Below, piece by piece: positions 503 to 3,483 of a stretch of DNA of 5,509 nucleotides. How positions within the stretch are numbered: position 1 is the stretch's first letter; the number at the start of each line of letters is the position of its first letter. A program made the position numbers and the translations under genes. Source of the DNA: a bacterium (GTDB lineage Bacteria > UBA9089 > CG2-30-40-21 > SBAY01); assembly GCA_040757115.1 (NCBI GenBank), contig JBFLYA010000247.1:1-5509 (forward strand). Reading direction: 5' to 3'. The notes below the pieces were generated by a model, which saw nothing but the letters and a program-made list of their open reading frames with translations, had not been told where the DNA came from and ran no database searches.

Positions 503-1654
503 ATGAAATTTGAATTTATTGCCCCAGCAAAGATAATATTTGGCGAGGAAAGTAGTGCCACGGTTGGCATTGAAACGAAAAGATTTGGCAAAAAAGTATG
601 TTTGATTACGGGTAAAACGGCGATGGCTAAAAGTGGTATTTTGAATAATGTGCGTAAGTCTTTAGAAGATGCAGGATTAGAAGTAATTCTCTTTGATAAA
701 GTGACACCTGAACCGACTATACAAATGGTTGATGAAGGATTATCATTAGTTAAAAGAATCAAATGTGAAGTGGTCATTGGACTAGGAGGCGGAAGTTCCT
801 TAGATGTGGCTAAGGCAGTAGCAGGTTTAGCCAATGATGGTGGTGATTGTGCTGAATATCAAGAAGGTAGAAAAATACAAAAAGAAGGATTACCATTTAT
901 TGCTATACCAACTACGGCTGGAACAGGTGCAGAAGCAACTTATAACGCAGTTATTATTAATGAAGAAAAAAAGGTTAAACAAAGCATTCGAGATTATTCG
1001 TTAATGGCAAAGGTAGCGATTGTTGACCCCACATTAACTTTTACACTTTCTTCAAATATGACGACTATTTGTGGGATGGATACCTTAGTTCATCTTATAG
1101 AAGGTTATGTTTCAAATGGGGCTAATCTTTTAACAGATTCATTAGCTCTTCAAGGGATTAAATTAGTCAGTGCAAGTTTAAAAAAGGTAGTTTTCGATGG
1201 TCAGGATAAAAAGGCAAGAACAGATATGTCTTTAGCCTCATTGCTTGGTGGGTTGGTATTAGCCAATGCTGGTTTGGGGGCTGTCCATGGATTAGCCGCT
1301 TCTTTAGGACCGTTATACAATCTCCCACATGGCCTGGCCTGTGCGGTTTTACTCCCTTATGTTATGGAGTATAATTTAGAAGCCGCTATTCCAAAGTTTG
1401 CCCAAATTGCTTATCTTCTGGATAAACAAACCACGACTCTTTCAACCGAAGGAGCGGCTTTTGAATCCGTAGTTTTAATCGAAGAATTTATCTCAAGTCT
1501 AAAATTACCTTTTAGTTTAAGCAGTCTTGGTGTTCAAGAACAGGATTTACCAATTATCGTTCAAGGGGTCTCTTCTTCTTTAAAATATAACCCACGAGAG
1601 GCGAATTTTAAAGATTTGCTTAATATCCTTAAAAACGCTCTGGTTGGAGAATGA
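503..1654 (+). CDS. Iron-containing alcohol dehydrogenase (Fe-ADH superfamily), 383 aa
   Basis: A cytoplasmic group III (iron-dependent) alcohol dehydrogenase of full family length, interconverting alcohols with aldehydes or ketones using NAD(P). The N-terminal Rossmann-like half carries the dinucleotide-binding GGGSSLDVAKA (residues 95-105) and the TTAGTGAEAT segment (137-146). The C-terminal helical half supplies the expected metal ligands: D193 and H197 in GMDTLVH, H262 in AVHG, and H276 in LPHG. The residue four after H262, a histidine in FucO-type enzymes, is alanine here (A266); some subfamilies with a GAVHG motif also lack it, so this points to subfamily rather than inactivation. Substrate cannot be told from sequence. 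The start is supported by AAGGATAAGG just upstream, overlapping the DUF1844 stop region, and suggests translational coupling with that gene. Confidence 0.93.
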   Translation: MKFEFIAPAKIIFGEESSATVGIETKRFGKKVCLITGKTAMAKSGILNNVRKSLEDAGLEVILFDKVTPEPTIQMVDEGLSLVKRIKCEVVIGLGGGSSLDVAKAVAGLANDGGDCAEYQEGRKIQKEGLPFIAIPTTAGTGAEATYNAVIINEEKKVKQSIRDYSLMAKVAIVDPTLTFTLSSNMTTICGMDTLVHLIEGYVSNGANLLTDSLALQGIKLVSASLKKVVFDGQDKKARTDMSLASLLGGLVLANAGLGAVHGLAASLGPLYNLPHGLACAVLLPYVMEYNLEAAIPKFAQIAYLLDKQTTTLSTEGAAFESVVLIEEFISSLKLPFSLSSLGVQEQDLPIIVQGVSSSLKYNPREANFKDLLNILKNALVGE

Positions 1655-1846: not shown

Positions 1847-1905
1847 GGCTAACAAGTCGTTAGAGCGGACGTGCTAACGCACGCCGCTGAACTCTGTCGT
1901 TAGCA
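1847..1905 (+). other. attC-like integron recombination site 1 (about 59 bp)
   Basis: The site has the paired-box architecture of attC. R'' GCTAAC (1848-1853) complements R' GTTAGC (1899-1904). A spacer with mismatches follows (1854-1858 against 1893-1898). L'' GTT (1859-1861) pairs with AAC (1890-1892), then AGCGG (1864-1868) pairs with CCGCT (1884-1888). A1869 is an unpaired extrahelical base, and unequal bases at 1862-1863/1889 form a second bulge. A terminal stem CGTGC/GCACG (1870-1874/1879-1883) closes on a TAAC loop. R' has the invariant GTT but deviates from GTTRRRY in its last two bases. Length lies at the short end of the known attC range. Alternatives are an unrelated REP-like hairpin, but the box order, bulges and the second copy at 2444-2575 favour attC. 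Confidence 0.8.
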
Positions 1906-1927
1906 ATAAAATAAAAGGAAATTCCGA

Positions 1928-2188
1928 CTGCCTATTATATCCAGATTTTTCGGTATAGTAATACGGATGTTCTACGATGAGCATAGTCCTCCTCACTTAC
2001 ATGCTGAGTACCAAGGGAGCAAGGCAGTTTTTGATTTTGAGGGTAATATTGCAAAGGGAAGTTTAGGTTCCAGGACAGCGACCAAGCTTGTCAGAGAATG
2101 GATAGATTTACATCTTGGTGAGATTGAAAAAGATTGGCAGCTGGCAAGTGAAGGAAAAGAAATAAGAAAGATTGCACCATTGGATTGA
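1928..2188 (+). CDS. DUF4160 family protein, 86 aa, probable CTG start
   Basis: Recognised as DUF4160 from the DEHSPPHLHAEYQG block, the FDFEGNIAKGSLGSR strand-turn region and the VREWIDLHLGEIEKDW helix, followed by a short C-terminal KIAPL. The family is small and of unknown biochemical function, usually encoded next to a DUF2442 gene. The first in-frame ATG (1967) gives only 73 aa and removes the conserved N-terminal strand. Reading upstream restores PIISRFFGIVIRM, the expected family N-terminus, beginning at CTG 1928-1930, exactly where members normally have ATG followed by Pro. AAAGGAA at 1914-1920 gives an SD about 8 nt before this CTG; ATG 1967 has no good SD. Either CTG is used as a rare start or an ATG was lost, which would lower expression. 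First gene of the integron cassette; DUF2442 follows 18 nt later. Confidence 0.82.
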   Translation: MPIISRFFGIVIRMFYDEHSPPHLHAEYQGSKAVFDFEGNIAKGSLGSRTATKLVREWIDLHLGEIEKDWQLASEGKEIRKIAPLD

Positions 2189-2206
2189 GGGAGGCGAGAT
2201 ATAAAT

Positions 2207-2449
2207 ATGTGGAATATGAACGAGGTTCAAGAAATTAAATACAATAGAGATTATATCTATCATATTGTATTTGACGATGGGAAAAGGGGCAATGTTGATT
2301 TTTCCGAATATATTGCTAAAGGCCCTGTGTTTAAGCCGTTGCGAGATTTAGCATTTTTCAGAAAAGCCATAATTGATGGGGGGACAATAGCATGGCCGAA
2401 TGGTGCCGATATTGCGCCAGAAACATTATATGATAAAATAAATTGCTAA
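2207..2449 (+). CDS. DUF2442 family protein, 80 aa
   Basis: Recognised as DUF2442 from its C-terminal signature [18 protein letters not shown] (residues 58-75) and the preceding [24 protein letters not shown] segment. The family is a small single-domain fold of unknown function, sometimes fused to DNA-binding domains and often paired with DUF4160. That pairing has led to suggestions of a toxin-antitoxin-like module, which nothing in this sequence proves. GGGAGG (2189-2194) is the SD for ATG 2207 at 12 nt; ATG 2216 ([10 protein letters not shown]) is an alternative start. The gene is 18 nt downstream of DUF4160 and its TAA stop (2447-2449) forms part of the attC R'' box GCTAAC, a hallmark of cassette-borne genes. 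Confidence 0.87.
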
Positions 2450-2575
2450 CAAATCGTTGCATCGGACGGCAGGGACTATGCCGCTTGTCAGAGTTTTGCG
2501 GGTTATCAAGGTTTTATCTTGCTAACAAAGGTTGGTGGTAATTTTCCTCGCCGCCGCTGAACTTTAGCGTTAGAC
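2444..2575 (+). other. attC-like integron recombination site 2 (132 bp, long form)
   Basis: R'' TGCTAAC (2444-2450) opposes R' GTTAGAC (2569-2575), which fits the GTTRRRY consensus fully. L'' GTT (2456-2458) pairs with AAC (2560-2562). CGG (2463-2465) pairs with CCG (2554-2556), A2466 is extrahelical as in site 1, and CGGC (2467-2470) pairs with GCCG (2550-2553). The terminal region (2471-2549) is long, within the known attC size range. CGCCGCTGAACT at 2552-2563 is identical to 1882-1893 of site 1. A second R''-like TTGCTAACAAA inside the site (2519-2529) means the true boundaries are ambiguous; see the nested site. Confidence 0.72.
2520..2575 (+). other. Nested shorter attC candidate within site 2
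   Basis: TGCTAAC at 2520-2526 could serve as R'' with the same R' (2569-2575), giving a 56-bp site close in size to site 1. GTT (2531-2533) pairs with AAC (2560-2562) and GTGG (2535-2538) with CCGC including one G-T wobble. In that reading, 2444-2519 would be a degenerate earlier attC or the remnant of a nearly empty cassette. The pairing is weaker than that of the 132-bp reading. Confidence 0.4.
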
Positions 2576-2637: not shown

Positions 2638-3183
2638 ATGATGAAATATAAATTAATAGGAATTTTACTCATAATCTTTGGCTATATATCTCCTTCAGGA
2701 GCGCAAGACTATAGCTCACTGGGAAAATCTGTCTATTCCTCGAAATTTTATGGGAGTAAATATTCACAAGGGAAAAAGAAAACTACACCTTTAAAATCAA
2801 TAGAACAAAGCAGTGGGTTATTATATGAGCGTGGGACATCTACTTTAAGAGGTGGAACTCACACCCCCACAGGATTATTATTATATAAATATGCTAAAAA
2901 AACTGAACCTGTTCCCTATGTGCCTATTTCGAAAGTAGCAACTTCTACCCTGACTTATACGACAACTGATTATGCAACCGCAGAAAGATTGAAAGTTGAA
3001 GAACCTATGTTTAGTCCCTGGTTAGGGCAATCGATTTATAAAAAACTATCTGAACAAGATAAAGATGATACCCCTGCATATTATTCCCCAACAGAAAGAA
3101 AAAATGATTATTACCAGCAATATTACTCTAATATTTTTTATAAGGGGAAAAATCCACCTGATAAAAAAGGTAGTGTTAAATAA
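2638..3183 (+). CDS. Hypothetical secreted Tyr/Ser/Lys-rich protein, 181 aa
   Basis: I do not recognise a family. The N-terminus is a clear Sec signal peptide: basic start (MMKYK), hydrophobic core (residues 6-17), then SPSGA with likely signal peptidase I cleavage after A22, leaving QDYSS. There is no lipobox cysteine. The mature part has low complexity and is rich in Tyr, Ser, Thr, Lys and Pro, contains no cysteine, and shows recurrent short Y-x-S/K motifs such as VYSSKFYGSKYSQGKK (residues 32-47) and YYQQYYSNIFY (158-168), which suggests an extended or surface-associated protein. AAGGAGA (2624-2630) is a good SD for ATG 2638; ATG 2641 is equally possible. It begins 62 nt after attC site 2 and has no attC after it, so it is either resident DNA or a cassette that lost its site. 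Confidence 0.75.
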   Translation: MMKYKLIGILLIIFGYISPSGAQDYSSLGKSVYSSKFYGSKYSQGKKKTTPLKSIEQSSGLLYERGTSTLRGGTHTPTGLLLYKYAKKTEPVPYVPISKVATSTLTYTTTDYATAERLKVEEPMFSPWLGQSIYKKLSEQDKDDTPAYYSPTERKNDYYQQYYSNIFYKGKNPPDKKGSVK

Positions 3184-3355: not shown

Positions 3356-3376
3356 GAAATAAGGGAAATAGATAGG

Positions 3377-3472
3377 TAGGAGATAGAAGGTAGGAGGTAA
3401 GGAGATAGGCGTGAGGAGTGATGTTTTCTTTACTTTCTACTTTCTACTCTCTACTTTCTACTTCCTATTTTC
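3377..3472. repeat. Opposed purine and pyrimidine heptad arrays
   Basis: Six consecutive heptamers of the TAGGAGG type run from 3377 to 3418, the last three degenerate. After a 12-nt centre, six of the TACTTTC type run from 3431 to 3472 (three exact copies at 3431, 3438 and 3452). The second array is roughly the reverse complement of the first, so the pair can form a long imperfect hairpin, or triplex DNA given its purine/pyrimidine strand bias. It ends 12 nt before the HydB-like SD core. Confidence 0.7.
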
Positions 3473-3483
3473 AGGCGAAAGGA
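3467..3483 (+). repeat. 17-bp direct repeat, copy B, overlapping the HydB-like ribosome binding site
   Basis: ATTTTCAGGCGAAAGGA, continuing into G3484, includes AAAGGAG (3478-3484), which sits 7 nt before ATG 3492 and is a strong Shine-Dalgarno. Confidence 0.6.

Follow-up and report, generated by a model that had tools for sequence, protein, structure and literature searches.

A gene cassette of integron type, with a DhiTA-like pair of toxin and antitoxin genes, very probably occupies positions 1900-2569 of the window (the whole 5,509-nucleotide stretch analysed, which is the entire contig C247), as a two-site CALIN that came most likely from the host's own large chromosomal integron. The genome is 4.3 Mb in 462 contigs, 99.9 % complete with 1.4 % contamination. 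On the plus strand, the order is DUF1844, iron alcohol dehydrogenase, attC1, DUF4160, DUF2442, attC2, predicted secreted protein, and a NuoF-type protein of 595 aa. The left neighbour of the cassette is a host gene for an iron-containing alcohol dehydrogenase (503-1654, plus strand; Pfam Fe-ADH E 9.6e-53), and the right neighbour is a host gene for a predicted secreted protein to which no family was assigned (2638-3183, plus strand). The intergenic segment at 3366-3480, which stops just 5′ of the NuoF-type gene, is a repeat of about 110 bp; this genome and another from the same genus (G001) contain dozens of copies that are 87-99 % identical.

Positions 1847-1905 (attC1) and 2444-2575 (attC2) are attC sites on the plus strand. 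These outer limits are exactly those of the initial annotation, which was made from the sequence alone, and the complementary boxes it described are present in the right order at both sites. The first site is of the short type, 59 nt, with R″ GCTAAC at 1848-1853, L″ from 1859, L′ at 1883-1893, and R′ GTTAGC at 1899-1904. The second is of the long, 132-nt type with a partly degenerate stem, and has R′ GTTAGAC at 2569-2575. The shared 12-nt segment (CGCCGCTGAACT) was likewise confirmed at 1882-1893 and 2552-2563, and the extrahelical A reported at 1869 and 2466 corresponds to column 23, an invariant and unpaired A, in an alignment of 19 other attC sites from the same genome. A second extrahelical base is found 3′ of the L″ GTT, at 1862 in attC1 and 2459 in attC2, and each site has one L-box mismatch. 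For the bottom strand of attC1 a canonical hairpin is predicted, with R-box pairing of 0.96. The large stem of attC2 is eroded and folds poorly alone, its R-box pairing of 0.38 being the lowest among 21 sites folded. From these predicted folds, attC1 looks competent as a recombination substrate and attC2 less so. The 63 nt to the left of attC1 (1777-1839) are 97 % identical to L052:4471-4533, just past the last attC of the array on contig C116.

An Rfam search of the window returned no match, and because Rfam gave no attC model, two covariance models were built. The first (R1) was made from six class-1 integron attC sites taken from plasmid records (aadA1, catB3, OXA-1, aacA4, the aac(6′)-IIc-linked site, and IMP-1) and was searched with filters off. 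In the window it matched attC1 with 28.8 bits (E 2.7e-6), the second-best score being 9.7, and outside integrons it scored no higher than 16.7 bits across 233 kb of control loci; at whole-genome scale, the attC1 match has an E of 0.002, which is modest alone. The large apical part of the long sites makes R1 overlook most of them. The second model (R2), intended for these, was made from 19 long sites at other places in the genome, with the window left out, and it matched attC2 with 119.9 bits (E 8.3e-33) and attC1 with 39.9 bits. The attC model check that the initial annotation had proposed therefore found both sites, and the R″-L″-L′-R′ architecture, with its extrahelical bases and unpaired central spacer, is recognised by an independent attC model. 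When applied to plasmid DNA, R2 recovered the known aadA1 attC (49.5 bits) and IMP-1 attC (23.6 bits), therefore the genome's own and the classical attC sites recognise each other.

Selection acts on the attC hairpin. Standard pairs make up 94.9 % of the paired cells in the alignment of 19 sites, a share that falls to 36-56 % when the partner is slid by one to three columns. Cells changed on both sides numbered 39, against 16.4 in shuffles, and none of 500 shuffles reached 39; all 19 rows come from one genome and related copies inflate this shuffle test, a weakness from which the slid control is free. The two-sided changes are mainly GTT/AAC to GCT/AGC and, in the L box, AGCGG/CCGCT to ACCTG/CAGGT, while columns 16 and 23, the extrahelical bases, stay unpaired.

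Between the two sites, which are 538 nt apart, the predicted mobile cassette measures 670 bp from cut to cut (1900-2569, plus strand). The predicted cuts, between 1899 and 1900 in attC1 and between 2569 and 2570 in attC2, were placed by the G/TT cleavage point of the R′ boxes in known attC sites, and the repeat copies are spaced 670. The cassette carries a DUF4160 gene for a DhiT-like putative toxin (1928-2188, plus strand; Pfam DUF4160 E 1.7e-17), followed directly by a DUF2442 gene for a DhiA-like putative antitoxin (2207-2449, plus strand; Pfam DUF2442 E 1.4e-16), which is the DhiTA gene order. The genes had been described as packed against the sites, and this is borne out here by the DUF2442 stop codon TAA, which falls inside the R″ box of attC2, and genome-wide by the head-to-tail arrangement. 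Except for the DUF4160 start codon, both frames are open. Translated from the CTG codon at 1928, the DUF4160 gene gives LPIISRFFGIVIRMFYDEHSPPHLHAEY, and its first ATG is at 1967. A homologue on contig C130 starts MPEISRFYG, and its ATG corresponds to the CTG (1928-1930) of the window copy, which is either a rare start codon or a lost start.

DUF4160 and DUF2442 are the domain pair of DhiTA, shown experimentally in Dickeya (PMC8198452). In a Thermus plasmid persistence module with the same two domains, no transformants were obtained from plasmids without the second gene (PMC12724237). The pair in the window has the same domains in the same order, toxin first, but its antitoxin, at 80 aa, is about half as long as the 160-position DhiA model and, unlike those systems, it rides on integron cassettes. 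Neither window protein reaches the NCBIfam equivalog cut-off (toxin_DhiT 37.6 bits against 100; antoxin_DhiA 26.9 bits against 200), and the pair is therefore called only DhiTA-like. PADLOC found nothing among the cassette proteins. Every one of the four DUF4160 genes in the genome is flanked by attC sites and has a DUF2442-like gene 3′ of it. The C98 and C130 pairs each take up a single cassette, like the pair in the window; on C38 the interval also contains a transposase gene, and the DUF2442-like partner there was judged by eye. Such recurrent DhiTA-like cassettes fit the idea of toxin-antitoxin modules stabilising big arrays. Two lone attC sites outside any array (L053:947-1005 on C261 and L054:2434-2492 on C197) are 92 % identical to attC1 and adjoin an apparent small toxin-antitoxin gene pair.

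The cassette is present here and absent from the corresponding locus of a genome of the same family (G003). There, the DUF1844, alcohol dehydrogenase, and secreted-protein genes are consecutive (the last being on contig C118 of that genome, directly 3′ of the Fe-ADH gene), with about 0.3 kb of non-coding DNA, and neither attC nor cassette was found between the alcohol dehydrogenase and secreted-protein genes. G003, at about 79 % identity, is related at the level of the family and not of the strain, and its intergenic DNA could not be aligned with that of the window. Because it keeps the flanking genes in order without a cassette, the cassette region is read as a probable insertion relative to G003, loss from G003 being less likely. 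G001 has an RpoB 99.8 % identical to that of this genome. Its sequence matches the right side at 97.6 % identity, beginning at window position 2585, 10 bp past attC2 (98 % over the region of the secreted-protein gene). Left of that position, G001 has unrelated sequence instead, up to the end of its contig 114 bp on.

The initial annotation had also called for a genome search for intI and further attC sites, and both were found. R2 gave at least 131 matches at E 1e-3 or better, with 150 of 1799 first-look candidates scored, and R1 adds short sites, so that at least 144 distinct attC sites are present on 36 contigs over the genome stretches examined. The count from an ad hoc script scan, which picked up many true sites together with palindromic false ones and missed some, was discarded. 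Single contigs hold 14 (C98) and 15 (C30) sites. Neighbouring sites within 4 kb form 103 pairs, 102 of them on the same strand, with a median gap of 660 nt. Hairpins found genome-wide with no genes between them had been named as evidence against a cassette; here, 90 of the 102 same-strand intervals contain an ORF of at least 40 aa, the longest running in the expected direction in 82 and in the opposite direction in 8 (none in 12). The cassettes are thus arranged head-to-tail, with their genes oriented with the sites and packed against them. More than 10 homogeneous attC sites on a chromosome mark a sedentary chromosomal integron, and this genome has at least 144, with attC also on the 16S contig. 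Cassette products include PIN, HEPN, nucleotidyltransferase, HicB, BrnT, CopG antitoxin, restriction, and methylase domains, functions that are common in cassettes elsewhere too (PMC9668308). Two long attC sites (L061:4388-4519 and L062:5023-5154) are read through as small ORFs (SNPALQLTAGDCAVVRVLWSLKVLSCYQTF..), and such read-through is a likely source of spurious annotated proteins.

Neither intI nor attI lies next to the cassette on the 5.5-kb contig, so this locus is not a complete integron. The earlier statement that no integrase is in view holds for the contig but not for the genome, in which C39 carries one intact IntI and six other copies are broken or cut. The C39 protein (L029:1471-2853), the sole intact IntI, is 460 aa long and, with 372.5 bits, clears the TIGR02249 cut-off of 265. 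Its alignment with the crystal structure of Vibrio IntI4 (2a3v) covers the catalytic R, K, HxxR, H, and Y motifs as well as the integron-specific patch, and the genome therefore encodes a tyrosine recombinase with the patch specific to IntI. Its gene is divergent from the attC array on the same contig. The protein has about 135 extra residues N-terminal of the usual start, and relatives of this long form come from named Brocadia, Desulfobacterota, and Nitrospirota genomes.

The six further intI loci (C30, C63, C118, C114, C324, and C116; L046 and L048-L052) hold fragments of a shorter IntI. At the protein level these are 38-56 % identical to the intact IntI, and at the DNA level about 72-98 % identical to one another. 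They carry differing stops, frame breaks, and internal deletions; those on C114, C116, and C324 are at contig ends, where incompleteness may partly be due to assembly. On C30, C118, and C116, the broken intI is separated from the array by conserved sequence that contains TTGACA, resembling a promoter, and a segment that ends at or near AGTATAATCTAAGG/TTA; these are likely candidates for Pc and attI. It is tentatively suggested, as a reading rather more apt to be wrong than right, that this is a compound super-integron, in which repeated intI-promoter-attI platforms of the short IntI have each decayed in their own way and the long C39 IntI, the only intact integrase, now serves all arrays and the outlying clusters, the window included, in trans. 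If so, it would be a visible history of integrase duplication, decay, and replacement in very large integrons outside the Proteobacteria. The repeated broken platforms are in any case material for asking how big arrays lose or replace their integrases.

The host lineage is small and deep. In an RpoB tree, it falls in a fully supported clade with DeMMO4_10, Modern_marine.mb.176, and IMS_BF-2 (labelled 'Marinifilum sp.', a doubtful name), apart from the Desulfobacterota, Nitrospirota, Planctomycetota, Calditrichota, and Chlorobiota genomes included. IntI over the cut-off was found in 6 of 19 genomes of the host phylum. Two genomes of the same order share the long attC type (up to 1e-29), with stronger matches than in the IntI-bearing genomes of other phyla tested. 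The only 16S match of the genome is on C63, and the integron is regarded as the host's own because this contig also has an intI relic and two attC sites. Together with the long attC type common within the order, this points to a long-resident chromosomal integron for the system as a whole. The initial annotation had suggested either an extended range for integrons or horizontal transfer. The range is extended by lineage only, since integrons are already known from many phyla and from Archaea (PMC8618304, PMC9668308), and horizontal transfer is not the best reading for the whole system.

Alternative explanations differ greatly in probability. It is very unlikely that proteobacterial integron contigs contaminate the genome bin. 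An assembly of 462 contigs with 1.4 % contamination leaves room for such an error, but the single 16S match shares its contig with integron parts, the cassette is contiguous in the window with genes 79-98 % identical to those of family and genus mates, IntI recurs in the phylum, and the long attC type recurs in the order. More improbable still is that the attC-like hairpins have nothing to do with integrons and are instead dispersed repeats of another kind, for example transcription terminators or REP-like elements. The sites are many and alike genome-wide and the genome is rich in other dispersed repeats, but these hairpins have two conserved extrahelical bases and an unpaired spacer, are uniform in strand with ORFs packed between them, and form arrays headed by IntI loci. 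A generic dispersed repeat was rejected on the reciprocal matches with class-1 attC sites and the covariation.

A far more serious possibility, falling a little short of an even chance, is a variant of the main reading and compatible with it: the window would hold a stranded fragment of an old chromosomal integron array, beside housekeeping genes, that is no longer a recombination substrate. The eroded attC2 stem, the CTG in place of the ATG of the DUF4160 homologue, the broken or cut state of six of the seven intI loci, and the unrelated sequence in G001 left of position 2585 are in keeping with this. On the other hand, attC1 has a canonical fold, both frames are otherwise open, and the gene order kept in G003 favours insertion over rearrangement. 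Because attC2 is eroded and DUF4160 has the CTG start, the window copy may now be fixed or decaying.

On the preferred reading, a gene cassette from the host's own integron, IntI supplied in trans would recombine the folded bottom strand of attC at the G/TT of the R′ box. Cassettes would leave as circles and enter attI, another attC or a secondary GTT-like site, in the window by insertion between the alcohol dehydrogenase and secreted-protein genes. Addiction to the toxin-antitoxin content would then disfavour cassette loss.

A CALIN is defined in the literature as two or more attC sites spaced by under 4 kb with no intI (PMC9024848, PMC9668308), and within the contig the window conforms to this. 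It differs from a typical CALIN in that the same genome also holds an intact IntI, and the contig is too short to exclude a nearby intI. The boxes and fold of its sites are like those of class 1 integron cassettes (aadA1, blaIMP-1), with models that cross-match both ways, but the window element has no resistance gene and no mobile platform was seen in it, and the IntI core here is 39.5 % identical to IntI1. The sedentary chromosomal integrons (superintegrons) of Vibrio and Xanthomonas share with this genome the many cassettes, the homogeneous long attC family, the IntI with its integron-specific patch, cassettes divergent from intI, and cassette genes that are mostly without known function or for toxin-antitoxin, nuclease or restriction functions. 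In contrast to those, the host is uncultivated and far from the Proteobacteria, the arrays are seen in a fragmented assembly, and intI occurs in two types at seven or more loci, of which six are broken or cut. The integron class is not new here; its size, its host, and the series of decayed integrase platforms are what is unusual. With at least 144 sites in one genome and IntI in 6 of 19 genomes of the phylum, cassette stores on the scale of superintegrons occur far from Vibrio.
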